In this document: positions 32,453 to 37,201 of the stretch, one piece after another | Layout: every line of letters begins with the position of its first letter | Numbering within the stretch: position 1 is the stretch's first letter | From: Sulfurovum sp. | Lineage (GTDB): Bacteria > Campylobacterota > Campylobacteria > Campylobacterales > Sulfurovaceae | Direction of reading: 5' to 3' | Length of the DNA stretch: 64,000 bases | Assembly: GCA_027049035.1 (NCBI GenBank) | Contig: JALTVI010000066.1 | Location: 1 to 64,000 of the forward strand | Notes under the pieces: generated by a model | The model's input: only the letters and a program-made list of their open reading frames with translations | Told to the model about the DNA's origin: nothing | Database searches by the model: none | Position numbers and translations under genes: made by a program

Positions 32453-33706
32453 CTAAAGCACTTCTGCCGCCTGAAGGAAATCTTTGGCAATCTCTTCGGG
32501 GTCTTCAAGCCCTATGGAGACACGGATGAGTCCTTCGGTAACACCGAGGAACTTGCGGGTTGCAGCGTCAAAATCGCTGTAGATCGTGCTCTGCATATGG
32601 AGAGCAAGGGTACGGTTGTCGCCGATGTTGGCAGTGAGTGTCGCCATATTCAGTGCATTGAGGAAAGCAAAGGCGCGCTCCGGTGTGCCGCAGTCGATGG
32701 TCATCAGAGGACCGCAGCCGTTTGGAAAGTCGCTGAGGTAGCGTGCGTGGTCCTCGCTTTTAGCAAGAGACGGGTGGTTGACCTCGATGCCTTCGGGCAG
32801 GTTCTCCTCAAGTATCTGCGCAACACGTGCAACCGACTTGTTGACACGCTCGACCCTGAGCGAAAGCGTCTCCAGCCCCAGCATCGTCAAAAACGAGCCA
32901 AAGGCGTTGGCGGTCATCCCCACATCACGGATGGCACGCTTTTTACAGATGGGAATGAAGGCTTTGTGCCCCATTTTGTTGACAATTTTGTGCAGGTCGG
33001 CATACTTTTCGTTGTGCAGTTTGTCCCCTTCGGCCTTGACCGCACGGAATACGGCAATGCCGCCCAGTGCGGCGGAGTGGCCGCTCATATTTTTGGTGCT
33101 GGAATGCACGACAATATCCGCGCCAAGCTCCAGCGGACGCACCAGCAGCGGTGTGGCGGTATTGTCCACAACCAGAAGGGTCTCATAAGTATTGCAGAGA
33201 TCGGCAATGCGTTTAATGTCTGGCAGGCGCAGGCTTGGATTGCCCACACTCTCCATCAGTACCATCTTCACACCCGCTTTGAGTTTCGCTTCGATATGCG
33301 CGAAGTCATCGACTTCACAGAAACTGTTGCTCACACCGAAGCGCTTGAGGGTTTCGTTCACCAGCGTGTAGGTACCGCCGAAGAAGCCGCCGATGCAGAG
33401 CACTTCATCGCCGGCTTTGAGCATCGCGGTCGTCACCATGGCAAGCGCACCCATCCCCGAAGCGGTGGCAATGGCACCGAAACCGCCCTCCATCTTGGCG
33501 ACAATGCCTTCAAGCTTGCCGTTGGTAGGGTTGCCCACACGGGCGTAGAGCGGTTTGTTCACTTCACCTGCGAAGATCCCTTCTGCCTCCTGGGCATCTG
33601 CATAACCGTATGCGGCGGAGGGTACGACAGTCGGCGCGATGGGGCCTGTTTTGGCCCCCACGCTTTGCACAAGAAGGGTGTTGTAGTAGTCAAAATCTTT
33701 GGTCAT
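32453..33706 (-). CDS. metY: O-acetylhomoserine sulfhydrylase (MetY type)
   Basis: A PLP-dependent enzyme that makes homocysteine from O-acetylhomoserine and sulfide. The PLP lysine is in VHSSTKNMSGHSAALGG near 215. Other family motifs are YARVGNPTNGKLEGIVAKMEGG, SGMGALAMVTTAMLKAGDE, LVVDNTATPLLVRPLELGAD and LIRVSIGLEDPEEI near the end. Length 417 is typical. It is the third gene after DUF4395 and Rrf2, with a 10-base gap, so the regulator is encoded in the operon. Confidence 0.93.
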   Translation of the reverse strand: MTKDFDYYNTLLVQSVGAKTGPIAPTVVPSAAYGYADAQEAEGIFAGEVNKPLYARVGNPTNGKLEGIVAKMEGGFGAIATASGMGALAMVTTAMLKAGDEVLCIGGFFGGTYTLVNETLKRFGVSNSFCEVDDFAHIEAKLKAGVKMVLMESVGNPSLRLPDIKRIADLCNTYETLLVVDNTATPLLVRPLELGADIVVHSSTKNMSGHSAALGGIAVFRAVKAEGDKLHNEKYADLHKIVNKMGHKAFIPICKKRAIRDVGMTANAFGSFLTMLGLETLSLRVERVNKSVARVAQILEENLPEGIEVNHPSLAKSEDHARYLSDFPNGCGPLMTIDCGTPERAFAFLNALNMATLTANIGDNRTLALHMQSTIYSDFDAATRKFLGVTEGLIRVSIGLEDPEEIAKDFLQAAEVL

Positions 33707-33716
33707 TTTGGTTCCT

Positions 33717-34130
33717 CTATATGGAGTAGTTGAGTGTCTGGTTCGCTTTCATCTCGTAGTTTTTCAGTTCGGAAAGAGGAATGTCGAATGCCTCGGAGAC
33801 ACTCTTCTGGACAGCCTGCCAGAAGAGCTTGAGGCCCGGATTGTCAGTACGGCAGATCTCCCCGAAGGCATCGGCTTCAAGAATATGCACCACCTCTTTG
33901 AGGGAAATATCTTTGAGGTCGCGCGCCAGACGGTAACCCCCGTGCGCTCCCTTGATACTTGTAAGCATCCCCTGCTTTTTGAGTTCAAGTAGAATCTGCT
34001 CCAGAAAGCTCTGCGGAATATTCGCGCGTGCGGCGATCTCTTTGATCTTGAGTACCTCATCGGACTGGATCGATCCCAGTTCGTTGAGGGCTGCTACCGC
34101 ATAAATGGTTTTAGTTGAAATTCCTATCAT
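33717..34130 (-). CDS. Rrf2-family regulator, CymR-like
   Basis: This 137-residue winged-helix regulator has the Rrf2 form: TKTIYAVAALNEL, KEIAARANIPQSFLEQILLELKKQGMLTSIKGAHGGYRLAR, then a dimerisation helix. IscR-type members use three cysteines for an iron-sulfur cluster; here only one cysteine (EICRTDNPG) is present, as in the CysK-linked regulator CymR. The gene next to it is metY, so control of sulfur assimilation is likely. It overlaps DUF4395 by 20 bases. Confidence 0.87.
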   Translation of the reverse strand: MIGISTKTIYAVAALNELGSIQSDEVLKIKEIAARANIPQSFLEQILLELKKQGMLTSIKGAHGGYRLARDLKDISLKEVVHILEADAFGEICRTDNPGLKLFWQAVQKSVSEAFDIPLSELKNYEMKANQTLNYSI

Positions 34131-34566
34131 GTTTTATTACCTTGGTTAATTGTAAGACGTAGTATAGCTTACATCCAATACAAAAATCGAATAAAACTTC
34201 AAGAATTGCACAAATCATCAGGATAAATGCAACGAAGAGTGCCGTTTTTACCAAACCAAGGAGTGCAAAAAGCGTAATGGCTATAGAGGTGATAAAACCA
34301 AGGTAGAGGGCAAAACGCTTGGGGGATTCGTCCGAAAAATTCGGTGTAACGTCCCAGTGTTTCAAAACAGTCTTCGCAATCTGTGCAAACGGACTGTAGC
34401 GCTCCTGACGAAATACCCTTGCGGCAAAGTCGTAAAGGACGACAAAAATGAAAAGATCGTTTCGCGTTACGGCAAAAAGCAGTGTAAAGAGAAAGAGCTG
34501 AAATGAGACGACCCTGACAATATTGGTGTCGATGCGTCGCTGGGAGATAGGACATGAAGGAGACAT
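34111..34566 (-). CDS. DUF4395-family membrane protein
   Basis: A 151-residue protein with the family start CPISQRRIDTNIVRVVSFQLF, four or so membrane helices, and the closing FCIGCKLYY with its two cysteines. DUF4395 proteins often accompany thioredoxin or sulfur-metabolism genes, but their activity is unknown. The ATG at 34566 has an AAAGGA site five bases ahead; upstream frame positions to 34623 lie in the structured leader. First gene of the operon with Rrf2 and metY. Confidence 0.85.
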   Translation of the reverse strand: MSPSCPISQRRIDTNIVRVVSFQLFLFTLLFAVTRNDLFIFVVLYDFAARVFRQERYSPFAQIAKTVLKHWDVTPNFSDESPKRFALYLGFITSIAITLFALLGLVKTALFVAFILMICAILEVLFDFCIGCKLYYVLQLTKVIKHDRNFN

Positions 34567-34583
34567 GAACGTCCTTTGTAGTA

Positions 34584-34735
34584 TGCGCAAAGCACCTCTA
34601 AAGACCCTGGGTACCCACAACATCCGGTTTTGCTTCTAGATTTTAACAATATAAAGGGGAGACTACAACAATCTTAGAAACCGGATGCCCTTGTCCGTGT
34701 GGGGCTGCCAGGGTTTTCACAAGTGCTTTTCTGCA
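34584..34735 (-). ncRNA. Structured leader RNA of the DUF4395-rrf2-metY operon (possible 6S-like RNA)
   Basis: Read on the minus strand, nested complementary segments form a long rod. Outer TGCAGAAAAGCACTT (34721-34735) pairs with AGGTGCTTTGCGCA (34584-34597). Next come ACCCTGG (34708-34714 with 34604-34610), CCCACA (34698-34703 with 34614-34619), and AAACCGGAT-type arms (34678-34686 with 34622-34630). The top is TTCTA/TAGAA and GATT/AATC. An 11-base one-sided bulge interrupts the middle. A strong sigma-70 promoter lies immediately upstream, and the DUF4395 start is 17 bases downstream with no terminator between. This fits a cis-acting leader; a processed 6S-like RNA is possible but no large central bubble is evident. 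I match it to no known riboswitch class. Confidence 0.6.
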
Positions 34736-34747
34736 TTTGTTGACGCC

Positions 34748-34776
34748 ATTTTAACAAAAAAGTTTTTCATTGTCAA
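34748..34776 (-). promoter_or_regulatory. Sigma-70 promoter of the structured leader
   Basis: On the minus strand, TTGACA (34771-34776) and TAAAAT (34748-34753) are separated by exactly 17 bases, a near-consensus housekeeping promoter. Transcription would begin near 34741, giving a leader of about 175 bases. Confidence 0.8.
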
Positions 34777-34816
34777 GTAAATCCATTGATTTTATTGTTT
34801 TTTAAAAAAAATGATC

Positions 34817-34848
34817 TGCACACAACCTGCACGCAAACGTGTTATCAT
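34817..34848 (+). promoter_or_regulatory. TGCAC direct-repeat operator and promoter, site 1
   Basis: TGCAC at 34817-34821 and 34828-34832 (11-base period), then 10 bases to TATCAT (34843-34848). The same geometry occurs at 37912-37943 and 38264-38295. One-turn direct repeats overlapping the -35 region are typical of OmpR-family regulators. It drives the DUF302-SHOCT-copA-copB genes. Confidence 0.75.
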
Positions 34849-34878: not shown

Positions 34879-35265
34879 ATGATCTACACAGTCACCACCG
34901 ATATTTCACCCGCACAGATCAAAGAGGAGATGGAAGCACACGCCAAAGAACACGGATTTGGTGTGCTTCAGACCTACGATTTTAAAAAAATTCTGCACGA
35001 CAAAGGCTTCCCCATCGAAAAGGAGATTACCGTCTTTGAACTCTGCAACCCTCCCGGCGCACAGCAGGCACTTACCGAAATCTCCGCTATTTCGGTCTAT
35101 CTACCCTGCCGTATCTCGCTTTACGAAGAGGATGGTATCACCAAACTCTCCACTATTGGTTTTGAAGAGATACTCGGCGCCGTCGATGTCGAAGAGGATT
35201 TCAAAGCCTTTATGAGCATCCTCTTTGTCAACCTCAAAGCAGTCATGCACAGCTGGGACTACTGA
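34879..35265 (+). CDS. DUF302-family protein
   Basis: A 128-residue soluble protein with the DUF302 core: HAKEHGFGVLQTYDFKKIL, ITVFELCNPPGAQQAL, ISVYLPCRISLYEEDG. The family forms a small beta-sheet fold, often near metal or sulfur genes, without a known reaction. Start at 34879 follows a GAAGGAG site, downstream of operator site 1. First gene of the copper-oxidase operon. Confidence 0.88.
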   Translation: MIYTVTTDISPAQIKEEMEAHAKEHGFGVLQTYDFKKILHDKGFPIEKEITVFELCNPPGAQQALTEISAISVYLPCRISLYEEDGITKLSTIGFEEILGAVDVEEDFKAFMSILFVNLKAVMHSWDY

Positions 35266-35276
35266 AGGAGCCAAAG

Positions 35277-35501
35277 ATGAACGGATATTTTCACGGATGG
35301 GGCATGGGATTTGGATGGATCGTACCGATCCTGCTTATTTTGCTGATCCTCTACATTCTACAAGGCAGAGATGAAAAGAGAGATGAGGAAAAGAGTGATG
35401 CACAGTCAATACTCGACCGGCGTTTCGCTGCCGGTGAGATCAGCCAAGAGGAGTACGAAGAGCGTACACGACTGCTCAAAAAGAATGGAGAGAAAAGGTG
35501 A
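35277..35501 (+). CDS. Small membrane protein with SHOCT domain
   Basis: A 74-residue protein: one membrane helix (about 12-30, GWIVPILLILLILYILQG) followed by a SHOCT domain, SILDRRFAAGEISQEEYEER. SHOCT tails promote oligomerisation. Its TGA stop overlaps the GTG start of the multicopper oxidase gene. Confidence 0.85.
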   Translation: MNGYFHGWGMGFGWIVPILLILLILYILQGRDEKRDEEKSDAQSILDRRFAAGEISQEEYEERTRLLKKNGEKR

Positions 35502-37201
35502 AACGAAGAACATTTGTCAAAGGGGCCGCTGCAGTCTCACTCGCAGCTGTCACGGCAAGCGGGCGTGAAGCCAAAACGCTTCCTAAGCAGGCTGGCACTG
35601 CAAACATCCTGGAAGGAAGAGAGTTCTTTCTTGACATCGATTATGCCCCGGTGAACTTTACAGGGAAACGGGCCGTGGCAACCGCCATCAACGGACAGAT
35701 CCCCGGCCCCACATTGGTATGGCAGGAGGGTGAAACCGTCACCATTCATGTCACCAATCACCTCAAAAAGAGCTCTTCCATCCACTGGCACGGCATTATT
35801 TTGCCTGCACCCATGGATGGCGTGCCCGGCATAAGCTATGAGGGTATAGCGCCGGGTGAGACCTTCACCTACCGTTTCAAGGTCAGACAGCACGGCACGT
35901 TCTGGTATCACAGCCACTCAGGCTACCAGGAGCAGACAGGCATGTATGGTGCCATTGTCATCAAACCCAAACGCAAAGAGCCGTTTGCCTACGACAGGGA
36001 CTACACCATTGTACTCTCGGACTGGAGTGATGAGAAACCGACCTCCATCTACCGCAAACTCAAACTCAGCAGCGACTACTACAACTACAACCGGCGCACC
36101 GTCGGCGACTTCTTTTCAGAAGTGGGTAAAAAGGGCTTTACCAAGGCATTCAGTGACAGGGAAATGTGGAACACAATGCGTATGAGCGACAGGGACCTCA
36201 GTGACGTGACAGGATACACCTACACCTACCTTATGCACGGCAACACTCCTGCCACACAGTTCAAGGCGCTCTTTAAAAAAGGCCAGAAAATACGCCTGCG
36301 CTTCATCAACGGTGCGGCGATGAGCATCTTCGATGTACGCATTCCCGGACTCAAAATGACGGTGGTAGCAGCCGATGGCAATCATATCAAACCTGTCACT
36401 GTCGATGAGTTCCGCATCGGTGTAGCGGAGACCTACGATGTCATTGTAGAGCCCAAGTCCCAAAGAGCCTACGCCATTTTCGCACAGAGCATCGAACGCA
36501 GCGGCTATGCTCTGGGCTCTTTGACACCCTCTGCGGACAAACTCGCCAGGGCACCCAAAATGGACAAACCCCAGCCGCTTACCATGGCGGACATGGGTAT
36601 GGATATGGCAAAAGTAGGCTCGCAAAAAGGGATGAAGATGCCTATGAAGCCCTACCGCTGGAAAGCGATGGAGGCGCAAAAGTACCCTGTTACGCCGCTG
36701 CCGATGGCAACCGGACCACAGAATACAATGAAGGCGATGTCACCCAAATACCGTCTGGAGGATCCCGGTGTGGGGCTGAGAAACAACGGCAGACGCGTAC
36801 TGACCTATGCCGATTTGAAAAACCGCTACTCGACCCGTCATGCCAAAAAGCCAGACAGAGAGATCATTCTGCATCTGACGGGGAATATGGAGCGCTATAT
36901 GTGGTCGATCAACGGTATCAAGTATGCCGATGCCAAACCGCTGCTTTTCCATTACGGAGAGCGCCTGCGCATCACTTTCATTAACGATACGATGATGAAC
37001 CACCCGATGCACCTGCACGGCATGTGGAGCGACCTCGAGAGCGGAGATGACAACCACCTGGTACGAAAGCATACCGTACTGGTCCAGCCGGGCTCGAAGA
37101 TCAGCTACCGAGTCACCGTCGATGCCAAAGGGGCATGGGCCTACCACTGCCACCTGCTCTACCATATGGCCGGCATGTTCAGAAAAGTCGTCGTGGTCTA
37201 A
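35498..37201 (+). CDS. copA: Multicopper oxidase, CopA/PcoA type
   Basis: A periplasmic oxidase that converts Cu(I) to less toxic Cu(II). The N-terminus MKRRTFVKGAAAVSLAAVTA is a Tat signal, so the protein is exported folded. Copper ligands are seen in SSIHWHGI and FWYHSHSGYQ (first domain), HPMHLHGMW, and AYHCHLLYHMAGM at the end (T1 Cys-His-Met). A methionine-rich stretch (MADMGMDM, GMKMPMKP, about 365-415) precedes the last domain and likely collects Cu(I). Start is GTG, overlapping the SHOCT stop. The symbol denotes the oxidase CopA, not the ATPase. Confidence 0.92.
   Translation: MKRRTFVKGAAAVSLAAVTASGREAKTLPKQAGTANILEGREFFLDIDYAPVNFTGKRAVATAINGQIPGPTLVWQEGETVTIHVTNHLKKSSSIHWHGIILPAPMDGVPGISYEGIAPGETFTYRFKVRQHGTFWYHSHSGYQEQTGMYGAIVIKPKRKEPFAYDRDYTIVLSDWSDEKPTSIYRKLKLSSDYYNYNRRTVGDFFSEVGKKGFTKAFSDREMWNTMRMSDRDLSDVTGYTYTYLMHGNTPATQFKALFKKGQKIRLRFINGAAMSIFDVRIPGLKMTVVAADGNHIKPVTVDEFRIGVAETYDVIVEPKSQRAYAIFAQSIERSGYALGSLTPSADKLARAPKMDKPQPLTMADMGMDMAKVGSQKGMKMPMKPYRWKAMEAQKYPVTPLPMATGPQNTMKAMSPKYRLEDPGVGLRNNGRRVLTYADLKNRYSTRHAKKPDREIILHLTGNMERYMWSINGIKYADAKPLLFHYGERLRITFINDTMMNHPMHLHGMWSDLESGDDNHLVRKHTVLVQPGSKISYRVTVDAKGAWAYHCHLLYHMAGMFRKVVVV

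Follow-up and report, generated by a model that had tools for sequence, protein, structure and literature searches.

A conserved hairpin leader RNA, probably of MITE origin, upstream of the DUF4395-rrf2-metY operon in Sulfurovum

Many representatives of the genus Sulfurovum come from deep-sea vents. In the Sulfurovum sp. genome studied here, the minus strand of the window (the whole 64,000-nucleotide stretch of DNA that was analysed) carries a three-gene sulfur operon, preceded by a promoter and a long hairpin leader, in the following arrangement from upstream to downstream:

34769..34786, minus strand: promoter-upstream block ATGGATTTACTTGACAAT (genus form ATCTATAGATTTACTTGACATT), overlapping the -35 element
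34748..34776, minus strand: sigma-70-type promoter TTGACA-N17-TAAAAT, with 11 of 12 consensus matches, kept in relatives
34589..34729, minus strand: hairpin leader RNA (P1-P2-bulge-P3-apical loop), 141 nt, recognised by its fold, a covariance model match of 127.5 bits and covariation
34708..34729, minus strand: P1 5' arm AAAGCACTTGTGAAAACCCTGG, matching the left terminal inverted repeat (TIR) of an IS5-type MITE
34687..34696, minus strand: unpaired bulge motif GGACAAGGG with its neighbours, conserved across homologues
34654..34663, minus strand: apical loop motif around GTCTCCCC (genus core GUCUCCC), conserved across homologues
34589..34610, minus strand: P1 3' arm CCAGGGTCTTTAGAGGTGCTTT, matching the right MITE TIR and the top TIR-profile match in the window
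34114..34566, minus strand: DUF4395 membrane protein gene (PF14340, 2e-28), the first gene of the operon
33717..34130, minus strand: Rrf2-family regulator gene (PF02082)
32453..33706, minus strand: gene for a MetY-like Cys/Met PLP enzyme (PF01053, 9e-91)

The protein family matches bear out the gene order DUF4395-rrf2-metY that the original prediction had placed downstream of the leader. The nearest NCBIfam model to the Rrf2 protein is CymR, at 75 bits and so below the cut-off of 195, and the MetY-like enzyme is best matched by O-acetylhomoserine/O-acetylserine sulfhydrylase, at 296 bits and under the cut-off of 495. The DUF4395 gene starts with ATG, with the Shine-Dalgarno sequence AAAGGA, 22 nt beyond the hairpin end. 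Divergent genes on the plus strand (34879-37201) encode, to judge from their sequences, a small protein resembling DUF302, a short one resembling SHOCT and one resembling multicopper oxidases; of the 14 loci compared first, that of the closest relative (L002) is the only one with these neighbours in place.

The consensus promoter was found as described, with TTGACA at 34776, a 17-nt spacer and TAAAAT ending at 34748 on the minus strand, and the range first proposed (34584-34776) thus covers promoter and hairpin together, given the match at 34729..34589. The block at 34769-34786 contains the palindrome ATCTATAGAT and occurs once in the source genome when up to one mismatch is allowed, while across the genus the form ATCTATAGATTTACTTGACATT is present in operons both with and without the hairpin RNA. 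The block is a candidate operator, possibly for the operon's own Rrf2 regulator.

The minus-strand segment 34747..34567 folds at -64.3 kcal/mol, as against -45.9 +/- 3.6 kcal/mol for shuffled sequences (z -5.2), none of 200 shuffles folding as well. This free-energy fold recovers the nested helices anticipated from the single sequence, including those of 9 bp and 7 bp; from the outside in, its helices measure 9, 4, 7, 6 and about 11 bp and are followed by an apical part. Comparative anatomy gives a P1 of 20 pairs with small mismatches, a P2 of 6 pairs and a P3 that varies in length and sequence. The one-sided bulge, put at some 11 bases in the original prediction, spans 9 nt when folded by free energy, whereas the comparative analysis gives about 11 nt.

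Comparison with relatives confirms the hairpin and shows it to be conserved genus-wide. When 60 relatives were searched at the DNA level, homologues came up in the same genus, and the first 14 that were aligned all lie upstream of DUF4395-rrf2-metY. With a covariance model (R1) applied to 399 genomes of the order, matches other than MITEs were obtained in 12 genomes, every one of them in the same genus. Our genus survey, in which DUF4395 was searched for in 78 genomes and the upstream stretches were fetched and scanned, yielded a clear copy of the hairpin in 43 genomes and a degenerate one in four others (L024, L119, L128 and L132), which have retained the loop and lost the bulge. One of the carriers is the cultured strain Sulfurovum sp. 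AR (L183). Each genome has a single leader copy. RNA copies scoring above 60 bits, leaving out the MITE match L048, always precede DUF4395-rrf2-metY, with one exception (L044). The operon at that locus (genome G013) is decaying: DUF4395 has been lost, only a C-terminal fragment of metY survives, and the hairpin precedes the remaining rrf2. Occurrence of the leader RNA outside the genus was rejected, since the matches in other families are MITE copies.

The helices are kept in relatives with compensatory changes. In an alignment of 42 sequences, 93.4% of cells are paired and 27 of the 37 pairs show two-sided changes; the covariation score is 0.372, whereas shuffles give 0.167 and slid partners no more than 0.108, in an alignment fitted to the covariance model and hence somewhat favouring the structure. 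Chance is nevertheless an unlikely source of this covariation, because the gap to the slid controls is so large. The unpaired segments are conserved as well: among the 42 aligned homologues the bulge carries GACAA in 41 and GGACAAGGG in 32, and the apical loop carries YCUCC in 40 and GUCUCCC in 35. A scan of the 78 genus genomes with an extended loop pattern returned no further occurrence.

In other families the covariance model gave weaker matches, which are short palindromic elements bounded by AGGGCACCTCTAAAAACCCT...AGGGTTTTTAGAGGTGCCCT. When 100 relatives were searched for these ends as a pattern, 29 had them, with a maximum of 41 per genome and often paired about 265 bp apart; the reversed control gave none. 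The fold of the 265-bp MITE is a stem that encloses two hairpins (z -15.3). This family with IS5-type ends is present in many Campylobacterales (L088, L089, L101 and L097, for example L101:89-354), and in Rfam nothing came near threshold for these four loci. Some of the paired ends enclose a full insertion sequence, as at L058, where the element measures 1,270 bp and encodes an IS5-family transposase (264 bits). At another locus (L098, on contig C31 of genome G042), a tandem array with an exact 800-bp period lies beside MITE ends, and in it a 124-aa coiled-coil-like reading frame recurs several times; the array may be an assembly artefact.

Several lines of sequence comparison tie the leader to this MITE family. 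The best match of the TIR profile in the window is the 3' arm of the leader, at 16.9 bits against a maximum of 16.2 in 4 Mb of random sequence, and both leader arms reach p about 1e-6 at most loci. The similarity continues inward, collinear and with the same polarity, the 5' side of the leader resembling the left end, with CATAATGGG, and the 3' side the right end, with CATAACAT. In an nhmmer search with the MITE profile, 35 leader matches score better than the best of 2,100 shuffles, their 5' ends falling at MITE positions 2-34 and their 3' ends at 214-266. Taken singly, a leader shows modest homology to the MITE (nhmmer E 7e-4 at best), so the case for a MITE origin is built on consistency over many sequences. 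Taken together, the similar ends, their polarity and the nhmmer ranking make the leader correspond to a MITE, and on these comparisons we read the hairpin ends as descending from an element of about 265 bp whose ends are also those of an IS5-family insertion sequence. The alignment further suggests that one inner MITE hairpin was reduced to the bulge and that the other became P3. The flanks of the hairpin are AT-rich, with TTAA on both sides at some loci (L008, L005), in an element too old for proof by target-site duplication. The MITE TIR is absent from the source genome at up to one mismatch; the leader is a descendant of a MITE and not a mobile MITE.

Seven copies of the operon (L123, L124, L126, L127, L129, L130 and L136) have an empty site, where the promoter block, as ATCTATAGATTTACTTGACATT or a near variant, is followed within a few tens of bases by the Shine-Dalgarno sequence and start codon; the block is weaker at L127. 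In the DUF4395 tree, which has weak support at several deep branches, L129 is basal and the remaining RNA-less copies are nested among RNA-bearing ones, which suggests one gain of the hairpin and several losses. On this tree the gain appears to date from near the root of the operon lineage; the repeated losses show that the hairpin is dispensable.

Starting from the structure, covariation, synteny, MITE homology and empty sites observed here, we hold, with slightly more confidence than doubt, that the leader is a domesticated MITE remnant acting in cis, most likely in the processing or stability of the mRNA. A MITE would have inserted between the promoter and the Shine-Dalgarno sequence of DUF4395-rrf2-metY, near the base of the operon lineage; one of its two inner hairpins would have collapsed to the bulge, P1, P2 and P3 would derive from the terminal repeats together with the base of the second hairpin, and the apical loop GUCUCCC would be new. 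Transcribed as the first ~150 nt of the mRNA, the hairpin would act post-transcriptionally, its long 5'-end helix of the RNase III type serving as a processing or stability element, and the bulge and loop may be bound by a trans-acting factor with a signal. An RNase III gene is present in the source genome. Operon linkage and conservation point to action in cis, which we favour over action in trans because the hairpin is bound to the operon and absent from genus members lacking it.

More tentatively, and with doubt prevailing, the bulge and loop might constitute a specific binding site that reports sulfur status (by way of a metabolite, an RNA or a protein) and controls the DUF4395-rrf2-metY mRNA, in which case the leader would represent a new class of regulatory RNA, and its emergence from a MITE could be traced stepwise within one genus.

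The most serious alternative, though in our judgement an unlikely one, is a trans-acting small RNA derived from the 5' UTR, excised by RNase III-type cleavage and seeding with its C-rich loop GUCUCCC on G-rich ribosome-binding sites of other mRNAs. The loop, which resembles an anti-Shine-Dalgarno sequence, is indeed the best-kept part of the RNA, even in the four degenerate copies without a bulge, and both RNase III and a near-consensus promoter are at hand. However, the hairpin is never found away from the operon and is missing in genus members without DUF4395-rrf2, it has no terminator of its own, and Hfq was not found in the genome. An Hfq-dependent small RNA (no PF17209 match in the genome) and a CsrA-regulated leader (no PF02599 match) were both rejected.

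A new metabolite riboswitch governing sulfhydrylase synthesis, with methionine, SAM, cysteine, O-acetylhomoserine or sulfide as the signal, we regard as improbable. The position at the head of a sulfur operon, the compensatory helices and the conserved but unpaired nucleotides of bulge and loop would all suit such a role. Yet there is no visible expression platform, as the leader contains no terminator and the Shine-Dalgarno sequence lies outside the hairpin and is accessible (mean unpaired probability 0.60 with the hairpin present). The distance from hairpin to start codon ranges from 12 to 122 nt across copies, and it and the variable spacing between bulge and loop are unlike a compact aptamer; covariation between bulge and loop was not seen. 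The cognate energies for pairing of the loop with the bulge or with the Shine-Dalgarno sequence were no better than with permuted or shuffled partners; a bulge-loop pseudoknot and loop-Shine-Dalgarno pairing were both rejected, and no partner of either motif came to light, which counts against the cis-acting reading. The original statement that no known riboswitch class is recognisable agrees with Rfam 15, which gave no gathering-score match to any family in the window or in seven relatives, and nothing relevant in 34540-34830 at E 10. A T-box was likewise rejected: UGGA occurs in the bulge of some copies, and its U is variable in the alignment. A leader peptide was also discarded, because the bulge and loop motifs share no reading frame, the distance between them falling in all three modulo-3 classes (16, 13, 12). 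Reading frames of the form MDKGI...SPLYC exist in some genomes, with variable start codon and frame, and the frame differs between L036 and L109 although their DUF4395 tree rows are identical.

Very improbable, in our view, is an inert fossil, that is, a functionless MITE remnant surviving through slow decay alone. The MITE origin and the absence of the hairpin from some lineages fit this reading, whereas the two-sided changes at 27 of 37 pairs and the near-invariant unpaired motifs argue against it, as does conservation spanning DUF4395 proteins down to about 45-55% identity with that of the window, over which the adjacent spacers are hardly alignable.

The suggestion of a 6S-like RNA fell away: RF00013 has no match in 34540-34830 at E values up to 10. 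In C. jejuni and H. pylori, 6S RNA is encoded ahead of purD (PMC3847290). The 6S/purD-type RNA of the source genome is found upstream of purD too, on a different contig (L031, about 1120-1316), where RF01069 matches strongly (84.9 bits) and RF00013 scores 20.4 bits, below its gathering score; the leader, which matches neither model, is for that reason not the genome's 6S RNA. That a second 6S-like RNA happens to occupy the leader is scarcely credible, since beyond the size and the long interrupted hairpin nothing speaks for it, the bulge being one-sided rather than a central bubble and the hairpin being bound to one operon and to a MITE. What stands of the original interpretation is a conserved structured leader before a sulfur operon; its origin from a transposon had not been foreseen.

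The leader may be a point at which sulfur assimilation in Sulfurovum is controlled. It shares with the 6S/purD RNAs (RF00013, RF01069) the character of a Campylobacterota hairpin RNA of about 150-190 nt, and differs from them in its locus, the absent model match and the absent central bubble. Among its closest counterparts are the IS5 family (NF033581 transposase) and the MITEs of Campylobacterales that share its TIR GGGCACCTCTAAAAACCC, which corresponds to the P1 arms with few differences and whose inner ends agree with the leader in polarity; unlike these elements, the leader has no transposase and no further copies in the genome, and its outer TIR end is degenerate, reading AAGCAC instead of GGGCAC. 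The ERIC/IRU elements of enterobacteria, for which an effect on mRNA stability was described in Yersinia (PMC2229807), are likewise MITE-type hairpins inside transcripts with a proposed role in mRNA stability, but they have another sequence and TIR and are multicopy and intergenic, in contrast to the fixed 5' position of the leader. The Correia/NEMIS elements of Neisseria, MITE hairpins in mRNAs with a proposed RNase III route (PMC2229807), resemble the leader as transposon-derived hairpins with terminal inverted repeats, co-transcription with genes and a long helix suited to RNase III. They exist as many mobile copies, whereas the leader is a single ancestral copy at one operon, genus-wide, with a decayed interior, new conserved loop and bulge motifs, and RNase III cleavage that is here only predicted. 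That bacterial MITEs bring hairpins into mRNAs is thus known already; a MITE copy fixed, reshaped and selected throughout a genus appears to be rare, a limited literature search having turned up no example. With the ancestral MITE, the autonomous insertion sequence, empty sites and both intact and decaying leaders available, the way in which a regulatory RNA arises from a transposon becomes directly testable. What sets the Sulfurovum leader apart from known MITE hairpins is the keeping of a single ancestral copy at one operon, together with its new unpaired motifs.
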